Assembly (NCBI GenBank): GCA_003560975.1
Contig: PWJA01000271.1
Coordinates: 1-37,942, forward strand
Source: Gammaproteobacteria bacterium
GTDB lineage: Bacteria; Pseudomonadota; Gammaproteobacteria; Xanthomonadales; Wenzhouxiangellaceae
Length of the DNA: 37,942 nucleotides
Direction: 5' to 3'
Shown here: piece by piece, positions 8,505 to 35,566 of the stretch
Layout of the letters: every line of letters begins with the position of its first letter
Numbering within the stretch: position 1 is the first letter of the stretch
Position numbers and translations under genes: made by a program
Notes under the pieces: generated by a model
Told to the model about the DNA's origin: nothing
The model's database searches: none
The model's input: the letters and a program-made list of their open reading frames with translations, nothing else

Positions 8505-8580
<76 letters not shown>

Positions 8581-8612: not shown

Positions 8613-8688
8613 GTCCCCATCGTCTAGAGGCCTAGGACACCGCCCTTTCACGGCGGCGACCGGGGTTCGAATCCCCGTGGGGACGCCA
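8613..8688 (+). tRNA. tRNA-Glu (anticodon TTC)
   Basis: A complete 76-base cloverleaf. The acceptor GTCCCCA pairs with TGGGGAC, the anticodon stem is CCGCC/GGCGG around loop CTTTCAC with anticodon TTC, and the T arm is CGGGG-TTCGAAT-CCCCG. CCA is encoded and the discriminator base is G. It lies 32 bases after tRNA-Ala and is immediately followed by an intrinsic terminator. Confidence 0.97.
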
Positions 8689-26186: not shown

Positions 26187-27314
26187 ATGGCTCGCAACAC
26201 CATCGCCCGCATCGACCCCGACGCCGTAGCCCACAACCTCGGCCTGGTCCGCCAATGGGCGCCGCACAGCCGGATCATGGCCGTGGTCAAGGCCGACGCC
26301 TATGGTCATCGGCTGGATCTATGCCTGCCGGCCCTGGAAAATGCCGACATGCTGGCGGTCGCGACCATCGACGAGGCGCGGGCGATTCGCCGCCTGGGCA
26401 ACCGCCAGGCGGTTCTGCTGCTCGAAGGCGTGCTGCACGCCTCGGACCTGGCCGTGGTCGAGGCCCTGGGCCTGGAGCTGACCCTGCATCATCCCGAGCA
26501 GGTGGCCATGCTGGAGAATCTGGGCCACGCGCCGACTCCCCGCCTGTGGCTGAAAGTGGAGTCGGGCATGCACCGTCTCGGCGTGGAGCCCGAGCAGGTG
26601 CCGGCCCTGCATGCCCGACTGCTGGCCCTGCCGGGCGCCGAGCAAGTCAACCTGGTCAGTCATTTTGCCAGCGCCGAGTCGGTCGACGAGGCGTCGGTTC
26701 GACGGCAGCTGCGGCGCTTCGATGCGGCCACCCGGGGTTTGAGCGGGGAGCGCTGTCTGGCCAATTCCGGCGCCATCCTGAATCATCCCGACAGCCATCG
26801 CGACTGGGTCCGGGCCGGTATCGTGTTGTACGGCATTTCGCCGCTGGCGGGCCGATCCGGACCCGAGCTGGGACTGAAGCCGGTCATGACCCTGGAAGCC
26901 GAAATCATGGCCATCAACCGGGTTCCGGCCGGCGAATCCGTTGGCTACGGCGCCCGCTTCACGGCCGATCGCGAACTCAGGGTCGGCGTGGTGGGGGTCG
27001 GCTACGGTGACGGCTATCCACGCAGCATGGTCGACGGAACCCCGGTGCTGGTTCATGGCCGGCGCTGCCCGCTGGTCGGGCGCGTTTCCATGGACATGCT
27101 GACGGTCGACCTCAGCGCCTGTCCGGAAGCGGCGATCGGTACCAGAGCGGTCCTGTGGGGCAAGGACTTGCCGATCGAAGAGATCGCCGCGGCGGCCGGG
27201 ACCATCCCGTATGAGTTGAGCTGCCGGATTACGCGGCGGGTGCGCTACCGGGAAAGCCATGCCGCCGGTCCGGCCGGGGGTCGGATCCTGCGGGAATTCA
27301 GGCTGGTGCGCTAG
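26187..27314 (+). CDS. alr: alanine racemase
   Basis: PLP enzyme making D-alanine for peptidoglycan, 375 aa. The PLP lysine is Lys35 in [11 protein letters not shown] and the second catalytic residue is Tyr254 in [31 protein letters not shown] and [13 protein letters not shown] are further family motifs. After KADAYGH the usual Gly is Arg, a tolerated variation as far as I can judge. Lies 21 bases after dnaB. Confidence 0.96.
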
Positions 27315-27348
27315 AATGAGTCCCGTTTCGAGAAAGCAGACGTCAGCA

Positions 27349-28692
27349 ATGACCGGAAAGCTCTACATCAAGACCCACGGCTGCCAGATGAACGAGTACG
27401 ACTCGGAGAAGATGGCCGACGTGCTCGCCGTCTCGCACGGACTGGAATTGACCGACCAGGTCGACGAGGCCGACGTGATTCTGATCAACACCTGTTCGAT
27501 CCGTGAGAAAGCGCAGGAAAAGGTCTTTTCCCAGCTCGGCCAGTGGCGCGCTCTCAAGCAGCGACGTCCCGAGCTGATCATCGGCGTGGGCGGGTGCGTG
27601 GCCAGCCAGGAAGGAGAGGGCATCCGCCGCCGGGCACCGTTCGTTGATCTGGTTTTCGGACCGCAGACCATCCATCGGCTGCCGCAGATGGTCGATCAGG
27701 TGCGCAGCCAGGGTCGAGCGGCCATCGACATCAGTTTCCCCGAAATCGAGAAATTCGATCATCTGCCCGCGCCGGGTGCGCGCGGCGCGAGCGCCTTCGT
27801 TTCGGTCATGGAAGGCTGCAGCAAGTATTGCTCGTTTTGCGTGGTTCCCTATACTCGCGGCGAAGAGGTCAGTCGACCATTGGACGACGTCATCGCCGAG
27901 GTCGCCGACCTGGCCGCGCTGGGCGTGTGCGAGATCAACCTGCTGGGGCAAAACGTCAACGCCTACCGTGGGCCGATGCACGATGGCGGCAGCGCCGATC
28001 TGGCCTTGCTGATCCGCTATGTCGCCCATGTCGAGGGCGTGGAAAGAATTCGCTTCACGACGTCGCATCCGGTGGAGTTTACCGACAGCCTGATCGAGGC
28101 CTACGCCGACGTGCCGAAACTGGCCAATTACCTGCATCTGCCGGTACAGTCCGGCTCCGACCGCATCCTCGCCCTGATGAAGCGGGGCCATACCCGGCTG
28201 GAGTACAAGCAGAAGATCCGGCGTCTGCGCAGGGTCCGGCCCGACATCGGTCTTTCGTCGGATTTCATCGTCGGCTTCCCGGGTGAAACCGAGCAGGATT
28301 TTGCCCAGACCCTGGCCCTGGTCGAGGAGTTGAATTTCGATCAGAGCTTCAGCTTCGTGTATTCGGCCCGTCCCGGCACCCCGGCCGCTTCGTTTCCGGA
28401 CCTCGTACCGCTGGAGGAAAAAAAGCAGCGCCTCAAGCGCCTGCAGAACCAGCTCAACGCCCAGGCCCGGGCCTATTCCGGGCAGATGGTCGACAGCGTG
28501 CAGCGGGTCGTGGTCGAGGGCACGAGCAAGAAGGACGCAGCCGAGCTGGCCGGGCGCACCGAGAACAACCGGGTCGTGAACTTTCCCGGTCCGGCGGAGC
28601 TGGTTGGACGAATGGTCGATGTGCGAATCACCGGCGCAATGGCCAATTCCCTGCGTGGTCGTCTGGAACAAGCCAGGACCGCAGCGGCCTGA
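27349..28692 (+). CDS. miaB: tRNA-2-methylthio-N6-dimethylallyladenosine synthase MiaB
   Basis: Radical-SAM methylthiotransferase that modifies A37 of tRNAs reading UNN codons. The 447-aa protein has the MTTase domain cysteines Cys12 ([14 protein letters not shown]), Cys49 ([13 protein letters not shown]) and Cys83 ([11 protein letters not shown]). The SAM-binding cluster motif is [17 protein letters not shown] (Cys157, 161, 164), and a C-terminal TRAM domain follows. I chose the ATG at 27349 because [12 protein letters not shown] matches the family; an in-frame ATG at 27316 would add 11 residues. The stop overlaps the phoH start (TGATG). First gene of miaB-phoH-ybeY-corC. Confidence 0.97.
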
Positions 28693-29669
28693 TGAGTGCT
28701 CCCGACCCTGCGGCGACCGTTCTGACCCTGGAACTCGAGCCGCCCGACAACGAGCGCTTGGCCAACCTCTGCGGCCAGCTTGACGACCATCTGCGCCTGA
28801 TCGAGAAACGCCTGGGGATTTCGATTGCCGCGCGCGGCAACCTCTTCCAGATCGAGGGAGAAAGCGATGCCGCCCGGGCCGGACGGCGTGTGCTGCGAAA
28901 ACTGTACCGCCAGGCCGAGCGCGAAATCCTGACCCCGGCCCTGGTCAACCTTCAGCTGCAGCAGTCGGGCCTCGATGAAGAGGAAACGGCGGTCGAGGTC
29001 GGCATACAGACCCGGCGCGGGATGATTCGCGGCCGTGGTCCGAACCAGAAACGCTATCTGGAGCGCATCGCCGCGCACGACGTGAATTTCGGTGTCGGGC
29101 CGGCCGGCACGGGCAAGACGTTTCTGGCCGTCGCCTGCGCGGTGGACGCGCTGGAAAAGGACCGCGTCCAGCGCATCGTGCTGGTGCGGCCGGCGGTCGA
29201 GGCGGGCGAGCGCCTCGGGTTCCTGCCCGGCGACCTGGCCCAGAAGGTCGACCCGTACCTGCGCCCGCTCTACGACGCCCTGTACGAGATGCTGGGCTTC
29301 GAGCGCGCCGCCCGTCTGACCGAGCGCAACGTGATCGAGGTGGCGCCGCTGGCCTACATGCGCGGTCGGACCCTGAACGACGCCTTTGTGATCCTGGACG
29401 AGGCCCAGAACACGACTTCCGAGCAGATGAAGATGTTCCTGACCCGGATCGGGTTTGGCTCGAAGGCGGTGATCACGGGCGATCTGACCCAGATCGACCT
29501 GCCGCCCAAGGTCTCGTCGGGTCTGCGCCAGGCCGTGCATCTGCTCAAGGATGTCGAAGGCGTCAGTCAGACGATCTTCGACGCCCGTGACGTGGTCCGC
29601 CACCCCATCGTGCGACGCATTGTGGAGGCATATGAAGCAGCCGATGCCGCTGTCGGGGGAACGTCTTGA
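28692..29669 (+). CDS. ybeZ: PhoH-family ATPase (YbeZ)
   Basis: Cytoplasmic ATPase of 325 aa, linked to the RNase YbeY and RNA metabolism. An N-terminal KH-like region precedes Walker A GPAGTGKT (136-143), RIVLVRPAVEAGERLGFLPG, Walker B FVILDEAQNTTSEQMKMFL, and TGDLTQIDLP. Overlaps miaB by one base and ybeY by one base (ATGA-type coupling), preserving the order found across gammaproteobacteria. Confidence 0.96.
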   Translation: MSAPDPAATVLTLELEPPDNERLANLCGQLDDHLRLIEKRLGISIAARGNLFQIEGESDAARAGRRVLRKLYRQAEREILTPALVNLQLQQSGLDEEETAVEVGIQTRRGMIRGRGPNQKRYLERIAAHDVNFGVGPAGTGKTFLAVACAVDALEKDRVQRIVLVRPAVEAGERLGFLPGDLAQKVDPYLRPLYDALYEMLGFERAARLTERNVIEVAPLAYMRGRTLNDAFVILDEAQNTTSEQMKMFLTRIGFGSKAVITGDLTQIDLPPKVSSGLRQAVHLLKDVEGVSQTIFDARDVVRHPIVRRIVEAYEAADAAVGGTS

Positions 29670-30124
29670 TGGAGCTGGAAATCCAGCGAGAACTGGTCGA
29701 TTCCACCGTGCCGGCAGACGCTGATATCGAGGACTGGGTCGGGCGCGCCCTGGGCGGAGAAACCTCGGTGATGCTGAATATCCGCATCGTTGATCTGGCC
29801 GAAGGCTGGGCCCTGAATCGACAATGGCGGGGCAAGGATTCTGCAACCAACGTGCTGAGCTTTCCGGCCGATGCGCCGCCGATCGACGGGCTGCGCATTC
29901 TCGGAGACATCGTCTTGTGCGCGCCCGTCATCGCGCGCGAGGCGACCGAGCAGGGCAAGCCGCTGGCCGCGCATTGGGCCCACCTGATCGTGCACGGAAT
30001 CTTGCATTTGCTGGGCTTTGACCATACTGAGAGTGCTCGGGCGCAGCGCATGGAAGAGCGTGAAATCGAAATCCTGGCCTCGCTCGGTTTTCCCAATCCT
30101 TACGAAGGCAACCATGACAGTTGA
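29669..30124 (+). CDS. ybeY: endoribonuclease YbeY
   Basis: Zinc-dependent endoribonuclease for 16S rRNA 3'-end maturation and ribosome quality control, 151 aa. The metal-binding signature HGILHLLGFDH (His109, His113, His119) is intact, as are KDSATNVLSFP and LGDIVLCAPVI. The ATG at 29669 overlaps the phoH stop; a TTG directly upstream is unlikely. Confidence 0.97.
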   Translation: MELEIQRELVDSTVPADADIEDWVGRALGGETSVMLNIRIVDLAEGWALNRQWRGKDSATNVLSFPADAPPIDGLRILGDIVLCAPVIAREATEQGKPLAAHWAHLIVHGILHLLGFDHTESARAQRMEEREIEILASLGFPNPYEGNHDS

Positions 30125-30175: not shown

Positions 30176-31015
30176 ATGAACGAAGAGGGTTCTGGCAGTA
30201 ACAACACGGGCTCGCGCAGCTGGCTGGAAAAACTGGGGCGGGCCTTTGGCGGCGAGCCCAAGAGCCGGGACGATTTGCTCGAGCTGCTGCGCGACGTGGC
30301 CGAACAGGGCCTGATCGAGAGCGATACCCTGGCCATGCTCGAAGGCGCGCTGGAGGTCGATGAGCTGCAGGTGCGCGACGTCATGGTGCCGCGTTCGCAC
30401 ATGGTGGTGATCAGCGAAACAGCTTCGGTGAAGGAGGTCATGCCGCTGATCATCGAGTCGGGCCATTCCCGCTTTCCGGTCGTCGGCGAGGATCGGGACG
30501 AAGTCCGCGGGATCTTGCTGGCCAAGGACCTGCTGCAGCTGTTCGCGGTCGAGGGCGAGCTGGCATTGACCGAGCTGATGCGGCCGGCCGTCATCATTCC
30601 CGAATCCAAACGTCTCAACGTGCTGTTGCGCGAGTTCCGGGTCAGCAAGAACCACATGGCCATCGTCGTCGATGAGTACGGCGGCGTGTCGGGTCTGGTC
30701 ACGATCGAGGACGTCCTGGAGGAAATCGTCGGTGATATCGACGACGAACACGATGCCGATGCCGTGCGCGAAATCGAACGGATCGAGGACGGAATCTACC
30801 GGGTCCAGGCACTGACCCCGATTGACGATTTCAACGACACGCTGGGCACGGAGTTCAGCGACGACGAATACGACACCATCGGCGGGTTGGTCGTGGCCGA
30901 GTTCGGGCGCCTGCCCGAGGCCGGCGAAACGGTCACCATCGGCGATTGGGTGTTCGAGGTCGAAAGCGCCGATGATCGGCGCCTGCACGCCGTGGTGGTC
31001 CGTCGCGACGCCTGA
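30176..31015 (+). CDS. corC: CorC/YbeX-type CBS-domain protein
   Basis: A 279-aa cytoplasmic protein of the HlyC/CorC family, implicated in magnesium/cobalt handling and, in E. coli, in ribosome metabolism. Two CBS domains span about residues 65-195 (VRDVMVPRSHMVVISE, GHSRFPVVGEDRDEVRGIL, MAIVVDEYGGVSGLVTIEDV), followed by the CorC_HlyC domain with FSDDEYDTIGGLVVAEFGRL. Its stop overlaps the next gene's ATG by one base. In most relatives the next gene is lnt; here it is a different protein. Confidence 0.95.
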   Translation: MNEEGSGSNNTGSRSWLEKLGRAFGGEPKSRDDLLELLRDVAEQGLIESDTLAMLEGALEVDELQVRDVMVPRSHMVVISETASVKEVMPLIIESGHSRFPVVGEDRDEVRGILLAKDLLQLFAVEGELALTELMRPAVIIPESKRLNVLLREFRVSKNHMAIVVDEYGGVSGLVTIEDVLEEIVGDIDDEHDADAVREIERIEDGIYRVQALTPIDDFNDTLGTEFSDDEYDTIGGLVVAEFGRLPEAGETVTIGDWVFEVESADDRRLHAVVVRRDA

Positions 31016-32184
31016 TGGTGCGGCTGGCACAGCGGGCCTGGCTGCGAGGGCTGGCAATCCTGCTGGTGCTGGCTGCGGTCGACGAAGCCAGGTCCCAGGA
31101 GGCCTGGCTGGTCACCTACGGGCCGGGTGCGGAGGTCTGGGAATTGTTCGGCCACAACGCACTGTGGCTGCGCGATCCGGAACGCGGGCTCGACCACACC
31201 TTCAGTTTCGGCTATTTCGAGATCGACCGGCCGGGCTTTCACCTCGATTTTGCCCGCGGCATCATGCTGTACTACGGCGCGGCCAGTCCGGCCGAGCGGG
31301 AATTCGCCTTTTACCGGGCTCGGGAGCGGTCGATCGGGGTTCAGCGCCTGGCCTTGTCGCCCGCGCAGGTCCGCCGCCTTCATGGTCTGATCGACGAGGC
31401 CATTCATCCCCATCCTCAGTACTACGCCTACGACTACTTTCGAGCCAACTGCTCCACCTGGCTGCGCGACTTGATCGATACGGTGGTCGACGGTCAGCTC
31501 TACCGGGCCCTGGCCGACGAGCCCGCGCGTCTGAACTTCCGAGACCACACCCGGCGCATGACCGTGGATCGGCCCTGGATCCATACCGGCATCATGCTGC
31601 TCATGGGTCCGGGCATCGATGCCCGGATCTCGGCCTGGGATGAAACCTTTCTGCCGGCCGCGCTGGCCGACTGGCTGGATACGGTCGAGTTTGACGGTGA
31701 GCCGCTGGTGGTCGAGCGGCGCGTGCTCCATGATCCACGGGTCTTTCAGCCGCCCGAACAGCCCCGCGGCCCCTGGCCGCTGTTGCTGGCGGTCGGCCTG
31801 CTGGCGGCGCTGGTCATCGTTGCAGGTGCCTGGCGGGGCGGGACCTGGGGCCTTTTGCCCTGGCGACTGGGGGTCGGCCTGGCCGGCGCGGCCGGCGCGA
31901 TCGTCCTGGGCATGTGGGTGTTCACCGGTCATCGCGATACCTGGCAGAATCTGACCCTGCTGCTGCTCCACCCGCTGTGGTGGCTGCTGCTGGCACCCTT
32001 GTCGGGCTGGCCCGGCCGAGCCGTTGTCGCCGGCCTGTCCGGGGGGCTGGCCATCGGCAGCCTGATTCTGGCCTGGCCCGGCCTGCTCCAGGATCGCCTC
32101 GATTTACTCGCCCTGTTGTTGCCGCCCCTGCTGGCGGTGCTGGCCGTGGCCCTTTATCGACAAATGGGACGCGCCGGAAACTGA
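31015..32184 (+). CDS. DUF4105/Lnb-like membrane protein, candidate lipoprotein N-acyltransferase
   Basis: A 389-aa inner-membrane protein with a periplasmic N-terminal domain. A signal or anchor segment (about 8-24) is followed by the DUF4105/Lnb N-terminal domain: WELFGHNALWLRD (His47 candidate catalytic), SFGYFEIDRPGFHLDFARGI, then YAYDYFRANCSTWLRDLID with Cys146, a Cys/His pair as in permuted papain-like enzymes. From about 250 roughly five helices follow. DUF4105 proteins include Lnb, a lipoprotein N-acyltransferase described in Bacteroides. The gene starts on the last base of corC, exactly the position of lnt in gammaproteobacteria, so it may replace Lnt. The family call is by eye; the function is inferred from family and position. 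Confidence 0.78.
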   Translation: MVRLAQRAWLRGLAILLVLAAVDEARSQEAWLVTYGPGAEVWELFGHNALWLRDPERGLDHTFSFGYFEIDRPGFHLDFARGIMLYYGAASPAEREFAFYRARERSIGVQRLALSPAQVRRLHGLIDEAIHPHPQYYAYDYFRANCSTWLRDLIDTVVDGQLYRALADEPARLNFRDHTRRMTVDRPWIHTGIMLLMGPGIDARISAWDETFLPAALADWLDTVEFDGEPLVVERRVLHDPRVFQPPEQPRGPWPLLLAVGLLAALVIVAGAWRGGTWGLLPWRLGVGLAGAAGAIVLGMWVFTGHRDTWQNLTLLLLHPLWWLLLAPLSGWPGRAVVAGLSGGLAIGSLILAWPGLLQDRLDLLALLLPPLLAVLAVALYRQMGRAGN

Positions 32185-32259: not shown

Positions 32260-33903
32260 TCAGCGCAGGTGGACCAGCCGATCGAATCGGGGCAGGGTGT
32301 CCGGGTCATGGGTAATCATGATCGTGGTGCGCGGTCCGAGCCACTGGTCCACCGTGGCGCTGAGCGCCAGAGCGGTTTCCGCATCCAGCCCGGTCGTGGG
32401 TTCATCGAGAATGACGATCGGCGAGTCGGTCAGGATCAGGCGGGCCAGGGCCAGTCTGCGCGCCTCGCCGCCGGAGACGTTGCCGCCGGCTTCGTCGATC
32501 CAGGTGTCCAGTCCGTCGGGCAGACCGTCCATGAACTCCCCCAGGCCAGCCAGGGCCAGGGCGCGCCCCAGCTCGCGGTCGCTGGCCTCGGGACGGGCCA
32601 GGCGAAGATTTTCGGCGACGGTGTCGCGAAACAGCATGGGCTGCTGCGACAGCAGACCCACGTGGCGTCGATACGCGCCGGGATCGAGCGTTCTCAGGTC
32701 GCGGTCTTCCAGCAGGATTCGTCCGGCGACCGGATCGATCTGACGCATGATGAGCTGGGCCAGCGTGGTCTTGCCGCATCCGCTGGGGCCGACCAGCGCG
32801 ATCCGCTCGCCGCTGGCGATGGAGAGGTCGAAGTCGGTGAAAATCCACGGGCGGTCCGGCGCATACCGAAAGCTCAGGCCTTTGATCCGGATGCGGTCGC
32901 CGCGCGGCGGCAAGGGTTGCTCGGGCACCACCAGCCGGGGCTCGGCAGCGGTCATTGCGCGAACCCGGTGATGGGCGCCGCGACATTGCTCCAGGCGGCG
33001 CCAGGCGGCCGGCAGCGGCTGCCAGGCCTCGCCCAGACCGAGCAGGGCCAGCACGACCAGGCCGAGAATCGGCCCGTTGATCGCGCCGGATTCGAACAGT
33101 GAGATGCCGATCACCAGGACCAGCCAGACGGCCAGGAAACCGGCCATGGTGACCAGGCCCTGGCTGAGCGCGTCGAGTCGAGCCAGGCGTTCCTGCAGGC
33201 CGATGACCCGGTCGGAGAGCTCGGCGAAGCGGCGGCGCTGCTGGTCGACGGAGTCGAAGGCGATCAGGTCGGCCAGACCCTCGAGGCTGTCGCCGGCTTC
33301 CCTGCGCAGCGCGGGGATGCCTTCGACCAGCGCTCGACTGGCCGTCAGACCGCGTCGCCGGGTGTATTCGGTAACGACGGGGTTGACCAGCAGCAGGAAT
33401 GCCGCGGCCAGCCCCAGCCACGGATCGACGAACAGACCGAGCAGGACGGCGAGCGAAGCGGTCAGGACCAGGGCGGCGCTGGTCGGGCCGAGCACACCCA
33501 GGAACAGGTGGTCGAGGGTGTCGATGTCGGCGGTCAGGCGGTTCAGCGTATCGCCCCGTCTCAGCCCGCGCAGCTGGAATTCATCCAGCTGCAAGAGTCG
33601 GGAAAAGACGCGCGAGCGAAAGTCCGAAAGCAGGCGGAACGTGGCTTCGTGGGTGACCAGGCGTTCCAGGTAGCGAGAGACCGTACGGACGACCGCGGCC
33701 AGGCGAATGCCGGCGCCCGGCGTGAAGATATCCAGGCCGACGAGCAGTCCGAGCCCGGCCAGGGCGCTTGCGGTGATGAACCAGCCGGAAAGGGCGAGCA
33801 GGGTCACGCCGGCGGCCAGGCTGAGCAGGATCAGGGCCGCTCCCGCCAACAGCCACCAGCGTCGATGGCCGAGGATTCGTCGTAGCTGTACGGGCTCAGG
33901 CAC
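32260..33903 (-). CDS. cydC: ABC exporter subunit CydC for cytochrome bd assembly
   Basis: Half of the CydDC exporter, which moves glutathione/cysteine (and is linked to heme) to the periplasm and is needed for cytochrome bd assembly. The 547-aa protein has six N-terminal helices with GVTLLALSGWFITASALAG, typical of CydC, then an ATPase with Walker A VGPSGCGKTT, Q-loop LLSQQPMLF, signature NVSGGEARRLALARL and Walker B IVILDEPTTGLD. I chose GTG at 33903: GGAGGAG lies 7 bases upstream and the codon overlaps the cydD stop (GTGCCTGA). A TTG two codons upstream is less likely. Confidence 0.93.
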   Translation of the reverse strand: MPEPVQLRRILGHRRWWLLAGAALILLSLAAGVTLLALSGWFITASALAGLGLLVGLDIFTPGAGIRLAAVVRTVSRYLERLVTHEATFRLLSDFRSRVFSRLLQLDEFQLRGLRRGDTLNRLTADIDTLDHLFLGVLGPTSAALVLTASLAVLLGLFVDPWLGLAAAFLLLVNPVVTEYTRRRGLTASRALVEGIPALRREAGDSLEGLADLIAFDSVDQQRRRFAELSDRVIGLQERLARLDALSQGLVTMAGFLAVWLVLVIGISLFESGAINGPILGLVVLALLGLGEAWQPLPAAWRRLEQCRGAHHRVRAMTAAEPRLVVPEQPLPPRGDRIRIKGLSFRYAPDRPWIFTDFDLSIASGERIALVGPSGCGKTTLAQLIMRQIDPVAGRILLEDRDLRTLDPGAYRRHVGLLSQQPMLFRDTVAENLRLARPEASDRELGRALALAGLGEFMDGLPDGLDTWIDEAGGNVSGGEARRLALARLILTDSPIVILDEPTTGLDAETALALSATVDQWLGPRTTIMITHDPDTLPRFDRLVHLR

Positions 33904-35566
33904 GCGCAATCTCCTCCAGGCGACCGTTGCGCAGTTCCAGCACCCGATCGGCCCACTGGGCGGCCAGTGCGCTGTGGCTGGCGCAGACCACGGTCATCGG
34001 CTGCTCGCTCAGGGCCGAGTCCAGGCCCTGCCACAGCCGCTCCTCGGTGTCGGCGTCGAGGCTGGCGGTGGGCTCGTCCAGAAACAGCACGGGCCGTGGA
34101 CTGAGCAGCACCCGCGCCAGCGCGATCCGGCGGGCCTGCCCGCCGGACACTCCGAGTCCGTCCTGGCCGAGCAGGGTGGCCAGGCCATCGGGCAGTCGCG
34201 AAATCATCCCGTCGAGACCGCTGAGGCGCACCGCGCGGGCCAGGGATTGATCGTCGGCCGAGGGCTCTGCGAAGCGGATGTTGGCGGCGATATCGGCCGG
34301 AAACAGCAGTGGGCGCTGGCCGAGATACGCCCGAATCGAAGCCAGCTGGGAGCGGGTAAAGCGAGCAAGGTCGATCCCATCGATCAGGATTTCGCCGCGG
34401 TCGGGTTCGCCGAAGCCGGCCAGCAGGGCCAGCAGGGTGGACTTCCCGCAGCCGCTGGGCCCGCTGATCACGACCTTTTCTCCCGGCGCCACCTGCAGAT
34501 CCAGCCCCCGGATCACGGCGGCCCGGTCCGGGAAGCGCTTGTGCAGGTCGCAAACCCGGATCTCGCAAGGTCCGCGCGGAAGTCGCGCCGCCGGCCGCTC
34601 GGGTTCGGTGCGTGCCGGGGGTGCCTTGAGCAGTTCGCGCAGCGCCTGGGTGGCGGCCAGGGCACCGGCCCGATCGTGCCAGTGCACGGCCAGGGTGCGC
34701 AGGGGGGTAAAGAATTCCGGGGCGAGGATCAGAATGAACAGCCCCTTGAACAGGGTCAGGTCCGGCGCGCCGGCAAATTCGATCATGCCCAGCAGCCCCA
34801 GACCGATGTAGATTGCCAGGGTGGCGATGGCTACGGCGGAAAAGAATTCCAGCACCGCCGAGGACAGGAAAGCGACCCGCAGCACCTGCATGGTGCGTTC
34901 GCGGAACTGTTCGGAGAAGCGCGCCATGCGGCCGATTTCGCGCTCTTCGGCGCCGAATCGACGCAAGGTGTCCAGACCCTGCAGGCGGTCATGGAACAGG
35001 CCACTGAGCCGTCCGAGGGCGTCTTGCTGGCGACGGCTGATCTGCTCGGCGCCCATGCCGATGATGATCATGAATCCGGGGATCAGCGGCGCGGCGAGCA
35101 GAAGCAGGGCGCCGGCCAGCCAGTCGGTCAGAAAGGCCGCGACCAGGATCGCCCCTGGAACCAGCAGGGCCGTGGCCGATTGGGGCAGATAGCGTGAGTA
35201 GAACGGGTCGAGCAGGTCAACTTGCTCGATCAGCCCGGTGCCCAGCTGGCCGGTGCCGCGGGGGCCGCGGTACAGGGGGCCGGCGGCGGTGAGCGCCACG
35301 AACAGCTCGTCGCGGAGCGTTCGCCGGACCTGGCTGGAGGCGGTCGCGGTCAGGCGACTCCGGTAGCTGACCACGGCGGCCCGCAGCAGCCAGGTCGCCA
35401 GAAGCGCGCCAAGTGCCGGAGAAAGCGAGTCGAGCGGAACGGAATCGACGATCACCCCGGCCAGAATCCAAGCCAGCAGCGCGGCCTGGGTCACAACGGT
35501 CAGCGCTTCCAGCGCGGCCAGAACAAAAGACGAGGGCACCAGCCAGGCTGGTGCCCTCTGTTTCAA
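33896..35566 (-). CDS. cydD: ABC exporter subunit CydD for cytochrome bd assembly
   Basis: Partner of CydC, 556 aa. Six helices with RDELFVALTAAGPLYRGPRG and GTGQLGTGLIEQVDLLDPFY, then an ATPase with Walker A SGPSGCGKSTLLALL, Q-loop YLGQRPLLFP, signature GVSGGQARRIALARV and Walker B VLFLDEPTASLDAD. The start is uncertain: TTG at 35566 with AGGAG 3 bases upstream, or GTG at 35539. Both lie in or before a strong hairpin (35532-35558), which may control expression. Upstream lies cydB (19 bases). Confidence 0.92.
   Translation of the reverse strand: MKQRAPAWLVPSSFVLAALEALTVVTQAALLAWILAGVIVDSVPLDSLSPALGALLATWLLRAAVVSYRSRLTATASSQVRRTLRDELFVALTAAGPLYRGPRGTGQLGTGLIEQVDLLDPFYSRYLPQSATALLVPGAILVAAFLTDWLAGALLLLAAPLIPGFMIIIGMGAEQISRRQQDALGRLSGLFHDRLQGLDTLRRFGAEEREIGRMARFSEQFRERTMQVLRVAFLSSAVLEFFSAVAIATLAIYIGLGLLGMIEFAGAPDLTLFKGLFILILAPEFFTPLRTLAVHWHDRAGALAATQALRELLKAPPARTEPERPAARLPRGPCEIRVCDLHKRFPDRAAVIRGLDLQVAPGEKVVISGPSGCGKSTLLALLAGFGEPDRGEILIDGIDLARFTRSQLASIRAYLGQRPLLFPADIAANIRFAEPSADDQSLARAVRLSGLDGMISRLPDGLATLLGQDGLGVSGGQARRIALARVLLSPRPVLFLDEPTASLDADTEERLWQGLDSALSEQPMTVVCASHSALAAQWADRVLELRNGRLEEIARA
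35521..35558 (-). terminator. terminator-like hairpin over the start of cydD
   Basis: On the minus strand GAGGGCACCAGC (35558-35547), loop CTG, and the perfect complement GCTGGTGCCCTC (35543-35532) are followed by GTCTTTTGTT. This 12-bp perfect GC-rich stem with a T-rich tail lies within codons 3-12 of cydD, downstream of cydAB. It could attenuate transcription from cydAB into cydDC or limit translation of cydD. Confidence 0.55.

Follow-up and report, generated by a model that had tools for sequence, protein, structure and literature searches.

The window analysed here is a stretch of 37,942 nucleotides from a gammaproteobacterium of the family Wenzhouxiangellaceae (GenBank assembly GCA_003560975.1, contig PWJA01000271.1), and it carries, directly behind corC in a miaB–phoH–ybeY–corC operon, a gene that very probably encodes an Lnb-type lipoprotein N-acyltransferase doing the job of Lnt from Lnt's own operon place, lnt probably having been replaced in an ancestor of most of the order. 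In Gammaproteobacteria, the maturation of lipoproteins is generally taken to end with Lnt. The case is built on what can be observed directly, namely the gene and its position, its full-length homology to Bacteroides Lnb, its invariant residues, its predicted fold and its distribution among genomes.

The original prediction, made from this stretch of DNA, had described the operon upstream of the gene as intact, and NCBIfam and Pfam matches for all four upstream genes, in the usual order, bear this out (Table 1). It had also called the gene fused by one base to corC. The one-base contact is there, one base being common to the corC stop TGA (31013–31015) and the lnb ATG (31015–31017), but the two genes overlap and are not fused. 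The statement that the gene behind corC is not lnt holds as well: the Lnt model (TIGR00546) and the LNT_N and CN_hydrolase models gave no match to the window protein at E ≤ 1 in Pfam and NCBIfam.

The window protein matches Lnb_N (PF13387) with 55.6 bits (gathering cut 22.2) and 5TMH_Lnb (PF25221) with 27.7 bits at residues 257–328 (gathering cut 25.2). By BLASTP its residues 21–379 align end to end with residues 18–381 of Bacteroides finegoldii Lnb (28% identity, E = 2e-32); the Bacteroidota comparison proteins were five matching records in a plasmid collection. An alignment of 43 of the 51 corC-linked proteins was built, leaving out eight duplicates or cut ones and making no use of L027, a stretch without corC; at E ≤ 0.001 Lnb_N is found in all 43 of these proteins and 5TMH_Lnb in 41. 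The predicted Cys/His domain with His47 and Cys146 is confirmed by the invariance of this pair in all 43 rows. Together with His306 and Asn312 it is also constant in 126 of 126 Lnb segments, counted as Lnb stretches of more than 330 amino acids from the fetched loci, with the window's own and same-genome repeats included. A 13-row alignment extending to members from Bacteroidota, Gemmatimonadota, Planctomycetota and Nitrospirota shows the same four residues and Pro320 unchanged in every row. The objection that any DUF4105 protein would do was considered and rejected, as eight other DUF4105 loci out of 11 looked at lack the C-terminal membrane bundle by hydropathy (open reading frames (ORFs) of about 300–410 or 630–700 amino acids), the remaining three (L007, L058 and L074), taken in a wrong strand or frame, carrying no information. 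These other architectures are of two kinds, ORFs of 628–696 amino acids without the bundle and ORFs of 301–407 amino acids with hydrophobic peaks at the N-terminal end only (L104, L106, L120; L009–L011, L057, L082).

The AlphaFold2 model computed from the 43-row alignment has a mean pLDDT of 95.0 and a pTM of 0.89. It shows a helix at residues 2–25, in agreement with the signal or anchor segment that had been claimed, a mixed alpha/beta domain at residues 29–239, and C-terminal helices at 254–274, 278–303, 313–316, 320–326, 331–353 and 362–388, where about five had been expected. In the model, the helices past residue 254 fit five membrane passes if 313–326 is a single pass broken at Pro320, and the loop carrying His306 and Asn312 would lie at the periplasmic face, towards the catalytic domain. 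The closest structures to the soluble domain are TseH (6v98, Z 12.9, 152 residues aligned, rmsd 3.2), YiiX (2if6, Z 11.3) and a Bacillus cereus cysteine peptidase (3kw0, Z 11.2). The next rows reach only Z 7.8, and H-REV107 follows at Z 6.8, a range where unrelated folds score too. Foldseek also finds TseH, with E 6.1e-4, and a sequence profile searched against the Protein Data Bank returned no relative and one chance match (E 0.59). The order His before Cys is a mark of the permuted NlpC/P60 group, and the window protein shows both this order, with His47 N-terminal to Cys146, and the fold match. TseH, YiiX and DUF4105 are placed among the permuted NlpC/P60 proteins in the accessible text of PMC12994826.

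These features suggest how the protein could work. Lgt and LspA would first make the diacylated apolipoprotein. In the periplasmic permuted NlpC/P60 domain, Cys146, with His47 as its activator, would then accept an acyl chain of a membrane phospholipid and hand it on to the first cysteine of the lipoprotein, at its alpha-amino group. Both substrates may be kept at the surface of the membrane by the C-terminal helices, and the loop of the invariant His306 and Asn312 would lie near the active site. In evolutionary terms, lnb would have replaced lnt behind corC in an ancestor of most of the Xanthomonadales/Lysobacterales, and canonical Lnt would have been lost. The chemistry proposed here (reaction, acyl donor and thioester step) and the sequence of evolutionary events are what we infer from the predicted fold, the invariant residue pair, the helical membrane bundle, the likeness to Bacteroides Lnb and the exclusion of Lnt.

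The genome that the window comes from (3.08 Mb in 286 contigs, completeness 99.16%) encodes Lgt (253 bits) as well as LspA (149.4 bits) and should thus produce diacylated apolipoproteins. A second, partial match to the Lgt family lies in a 387-amino-acid ORF (G000:C276:11189–11497, 33.9 bits, cut-off 24.9). The original prediction had left room for an Lnt elsewhere in the genome; a profile search of all contigs found no stretch over the TIGR00546 cut-off, and one Lnt-like fragment below it on contig C159. Five TIGR00546 matches were seen in all, and those outside C159 were rejected as a hidden Lnt: two on C43 belong to an N-carbamoylputrescine-amidase-like protein, one on C204 to a 572-amino-acid amidohydrolase-like protein, and one on C31 to a 527-amino-acid ORF that, from its size, is probably an enzyme with a nitrilase domain, for instance NAD synthase.

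The distribution of the two enzymes across the order points to a replacement. Among 249 genomes of the order, each at least 90% complete, the search found Lnb_N in 245; in another (G110), where corC lies at the contig end, the first part of Lnb is readable right behind it, which brings the count to 246. The only three without Lnb (G042, G052 and G054) carry canonical Lnt (∼300 bits) directly after corC. Canonical Lnt is thus present in 3/3 order genomes without Lnb vs 0/246 with it (Fisher p = 3.9e-7, kinship ignored), and the prediction that Lnb stands in place of Lnt is borne out on this scale. No Lnt over the cut-off was found in 221 of the 246 Lnb-bearing genomes, and all 34 single-contig genomes of the order have Lnb and no Lnt over the cut-off (one, G116, has an Lnt-like match below it). 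Among the near relatives (n = 61), Lnb_N was found in 56; the five without it are the same three Lnt-bearing genomes plus G001 and G029, members of the genus that are only 65% and 85% complete, neither of which has a corC match at E ≤ 1e-40 either.

We also sampled 309 genomes of the class, each at least 95% complete. Lnb_N occurs in 78 of them, mostly in long ORFs of about 580–740 amino acids, and 71 of the 73 Lnb_N genomes outside the order also match TIGR00546 at E ≤ 1e-20, the exceptions being G300 and G550. A full-length profile of the corC-linked Lnb, with at most six candidates scored per genome, found 6/309, comprising five genomes of the order and G550. Lnt is over the cut-off in 289 of the 309: in one of the six with full-length Lnb (G047, 188 bits) vs 288/303 of the others. 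In the exception G300 (family f48), Lnb_N is found in two proteins from long ORFs of 588 and 630 amino acids; Lnt does not match at E ≤ 1e-20, and the stretch around the best corC match (L180) shows no lnb.

A scan of genome contigs for named relatives was read for the best 80 of 576 loci. Pseudomonadota titles account for 56 of these, and all 56 have lnb on the strand of corC and downstream of it; the gap between the matched parts is 8–305 bases in 50 loci and 881–1317 in six. Hosts of this arrangement among the matches listed include Wenzhouxiangella, Dyella, Xanthomonas, Stenotrophomonas, Rhodanobacter, Arenimonas, Dokdonella, Nevskia and Lysobacterales, and the closest is a Wenzhouxiangella sp. 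record (85%). The remaining 24 of the best 80 come from Gemmatimonadota, Planctomycetota, Nitrospirota and Myxococcota and have no corC in the stretch. In some Wenzhouxiangella-type genomes a frame that by eye resembles an alpha/beta-hydrolase lies on the opposite strand between corC and lnb (L160:2108–2960 and L161:2963–3710, minus), so that lnb there cannot depend on an overlap with corC. In a Gemmatimonas phototrophica record (L224:3977–6654) lnb is directly followed by an Lnt-like stretch (108 bits, Lnt profile), both enzymes apparently being adjacent.

Several points weigh against the assignment. The window protein reaches 127.9 bits over residues 22–326 in the NCBI Lnb equivalog NF051878, short of the cut-off of 550. 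We rejected this as an argument against Lnb because Bacteroidota proteins fail too: the proteins of Parabacteroides (398.1 bits) and Hymenobacter (219.9 bits) stay below the cut-off, which the B. finegoldii protein passes with 667.4 bits, and the model looks tuned to close relatives of Bacteroides. The literature searched held no activity data for any proteobacterial member of the Lnb group. A Xylella fastidiosa paper (PMC7828034) tables an orthologue group under the name apolipoprotein N-acyltransferase, which may or may not be Lnt. The genomes of the order are related to each other, so the counts overstate independence and the replacement may amount to one or two events. Two further points concern Lnt itself. 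The C159 fragment shows the Glu, Lys and Cys motifs by eye, and 25 of the 246 Lnb genomes add a divergent Lnt-like gene over the cut-off (138–209 bits; ORFs of 820–940 amino acids in 20 of the 25). In those 25 genomes the acylation role could be divided between Lnb and the Lnt-like gene.

A first alternative is that the order makes diacylated lipoproteins only, Lnt having simply been lost, and that the corC-linked DUF4105 protein has another activity, for example that of a phospholipase or peptidase. A LolA/LolB paper on Xanthomonas campestris from 2023 (PMC10368991) describes, in its accessible text, strain B100 as lacking Lnt and infers and models diacyl anchors. In the same direction, the closest solved folds belong to YiiX, a cysteine peptidase and the effector TseH, and some genomes of the class have Lnt together with DUF4105 proteins that are built differently. 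However, the corC-linked protein carries a membrane domain of the Lnb type, which by hydropathy the eight other DUF4105 proteins lack, its full-length alignment with Bacteroides Lnb speaks against a diacyl-only order, and its gene occupies Lnt's position and excludes canonical Lnt. The diacyl inference of 2023, as given in that text, was drawn from the missing Lnt alone and is older than the 2024 Lnb paper. We therefore regard this alternative as unlikely.

Somewhat less probable still is that a divergent Lnt-like protein elsewhere in the genome N-acylates, with Lnb as an accessory. The C159 gene (C159:3–980, L154:3–980) is a 326-amino-acid fragment cut by the contig start that scores 52 bits at profile positions 129–394 (cut-off 132.9); by eye, it has a full-length relative of 536 amino acids in G022 (L155:5085–6692, 80.3 bits). 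Lnt-like genes over the cut-off stand beside Lnb in three genomes of the genus (G012, G015 and G019) and 23 further genomes of the order. Against this, 221/246 Lnb-bearing genomes, the 34 single-contig ones among them, manage without Lnt over the cut-off, and the C159 type was recognized by eye in 2/30 genus genomes among the matches listed. The C159 type stays below the cut-off and the second Lnt-like type scores at least 95 bits below canonical Lnt. Where the neighbourhood was read (G012, G015, G019, G022, the window genome's C159 and G081), no corC was found near the Lnt-like genes. The C159 gene could be an accessory or mobile-element relative of Lnt.

The second Lnt-like family in Lnb genomes mostly has 820–940 amino acids with an extra C-terminal membrane part (L040, L041, L044, L046–L048, L085–L098; L042/L156, L043/L157, L045/L158). 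In G015 and G019 a similar extra part is, by eye, apparently a separate neighbouring ORF (L157:2158–3036 and L158:6352–7296). Similar tails (FRSNFQ..., FADRFQSY and IFRNNFE) are found on secreted-looking proteins adjoining Lnt-like genes (L155, L163) and are perhaps a sorting signal.

The least probable alternative, an acyltransferase of this fold acting on another substrate, for example an aminolipid or a particular group of surface lipoproteins, draws on the varied lipid substrates of related permuted NlpC/P60 enzymes (PMC12994826, accessible text) and on the H-REV107 match, which is within the range of unrelated folds, while the presence of Lnb in 246/249 genomes and its exclusion of canonical Lnt suggest a core and not a niche function.

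Phylogenies bear on how Lnb came to replace Lnt. In a tree of 86 Lnb proteins (five of 91 picked rows were dropped as short), the 62 corC-linked members fall on one side of a branch (SH-aLRT 95), in keeping with a single entry of lnb into the corC slot. A concatenated MiaB–PhoH–YbeY–CorC tree used 40 of 46 loci: L162 (G054) was omitted as alien, five sparse rows including L279 of family f7 were dropped, and the order's own Lnt-bearing genomes are absent. It sets all 31 lnb rows apart from nine lnt rows with one change, across a weak dividing branch (52/31). Nevskia and G550 lie inside the order's Lnb tree, yet outside the order by their operon neighbours (98/96). An approximately unbiased (AU) test rejected holding the order's Lnb rows together without Nevskia and G550 (p 0.018), a result that is suggestive only since the test was chosen after seeing the tree. 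That the corC-linked lnb of Nevskiales (Nevskia sp. and probably G550) is inside the order's tree and the operon outside it suggests a gene-for-gene exchange of unrelated enzymes at one locus.

The three Lnt-bearing genomes of the order include one with distant operon neighbours. In G054, CorC is 27.6% identical to that of the window and PhoH scores 459 bits vs 519–579 in the order's uncut copies, and its miaB–phoH–ybeY–corC–lnt operon (L162) may, judging from these sequences, have been imported as a block. Family f7 may have gone back from Lnb to Lnt; the CorC-only tree did not place this family, and the concatenated tree cannot separate retention of Lnt from its regain. The full scenario has canonical Lnt lost across the order, Xanthomonas and Stenotrophomonas included: in the order's ancestor, lnb would have moved into exactly the place of lnt behind corC, and another swap would have followed there at a later time. 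In our estimate it has about an even chance of being correct.

The coordinates of the gene, its parts and the operon are collected in Table 1. The true start of miaB is probably further in than 27259, since the TIGR01574 match begins at residue 34. Elsewhere in the window, two adjoining ABC transporter ORFs (549 and 556 amino acids; 32260–35566, minus), by eye a CydC/CydD-like pair, converge on lnb. Rfam marks a truncated tmRNA at the window edge (1–120, minus) and two tRNA genes on the plus strand (8505–8577 and 8613–8685).

Table 1. Coordinates in the window of the candidate lnb gene, its predicted parts and the upstream operon
Feature	Position	Strand	Evidence
miaB	27259..28692	+	TIGR01574 601.4 bits (cut-off 355.3)
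phoH	28692..29669	+	PF02562 318.6 bits (cut-off 27)
ybeY	29666..30124	+	TIGR00043 135.1 bits (cut-off 45); PF02130
corC	30176..31015	+	PF03471 and CBS over cut-off; NF011675 302.5 bits (cut-off 379)
lnb (Lnb-type lipoprotein N-acyltransferase candidate)	31015..32184	+	ATG start, 389 aa; PF13387 and PF25221 over cut-off
N-terminal hydrophobic helix, residues 2–25 (signal peptide or anchor)	31018..31089	+	model helix; hydropathy maximum around residue 13
Periplasmic permuted NlpC/P60-like catalytic domain, residues 29–239 (predicted)	31099..31731	+	model, structure matches
His47 codon (predicted catalytic)	31153..31155	+	invariance
Cys146 codon (predicted nucleophile)	31450..31452	+	invariance
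C-terminal helical membrane part, residues 254–388 (Pfam 5TMH_Lnb)	31774..32178	+	PF25221 match; model helices
His306–Asn312 loop between membrane helices	31930..31950	+	both residues invariant

Lnb is the lipoprotein N-acyltransferase of Bacteroides, as stated in the accessible text of PMC12994826 and PMC13103446 with reference to Armbruster et al. (2024, PNAS). A 2026 paper on type VI secretion system effectors (PMC12994826) equates DUF4105 with Lnb in its accessible text and describes DUF4105 proteins as repeatedly displaced by Lnt, in three genomic contexts; in its main text, figure aside, the words CorC, YbeY, PhoH, Xanthomon- and Gammaproteobacteria are all absent. No paper joining Lnb with this order was found in the literature searched, which lay outside most subscription papers and all preprints, and neither the corC slot nor the order-wide scale of lnb was found there. 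The kind of enzyme and the general exchange of DUF4105 proteins and Lnt are thus already in print, and the present analysis adds a large proteobacterial group that spans the order and sits in Lnt's slot. If the assignment is correct, nearly the whole order makes triacyl lipoproteins via an unrelated cysteine enzyme, inhibitors of Lnt would presumably leave these organisms unaffected, and aerobic proteobacteria become available for the study of Lnb. The diacyl-anchor inference for Xanthomonas campestris and its LolA/LolB lipid models, as presented in the accessible text of PMC10368991, would then need revision.

Compared with known systems, the window protein is closest to Bacteroides Lnb, with which it shares the order of Lnb_N and 5TMH_Lnb, the length, the invariant His and Cys, and His306 and Asn312. 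It differs in that the identity is 28% and the NF051878 cut-off is not reached, and in its setting: the window lnb sits after corC, whereas the lnb genes of B. finegoldii and Parabacteroides lie upstream of an alkaline-phosphatase-family gene and secA, and its host is a gammaproteobacterium, from a class in which most sampled genomes have Lnt over the cut-off. With Lnt, a member of the nitrilase family, it has in common the gene slot after corC and the predicted place and reaction, but neither a model match nor the predicted fold. TseH and YiiX share the fold of the soluble domain, and Tox-Act1 the His before Cys (H43 and C151 in the accessible text of PMC12994826). TseH and Tox-Act1, however, are effectors according to the same text, and the aligned TseH and YiiX chains, of 180–183 residues, match the soluble domain only. 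The window protein can also be set beside the two-component lipoprotein N-acylation system of Gram-positive Staphylococcus aureus, by description only, whose genes are non-contiguous in the accessible account (PMC7387801). Lnb and the staphylococcal system have different gene arrangements and hosts. The latter, which we take to be LnsAB, is nevertheless alike in being another Lnt-independent route to triacyl lipoproteins.

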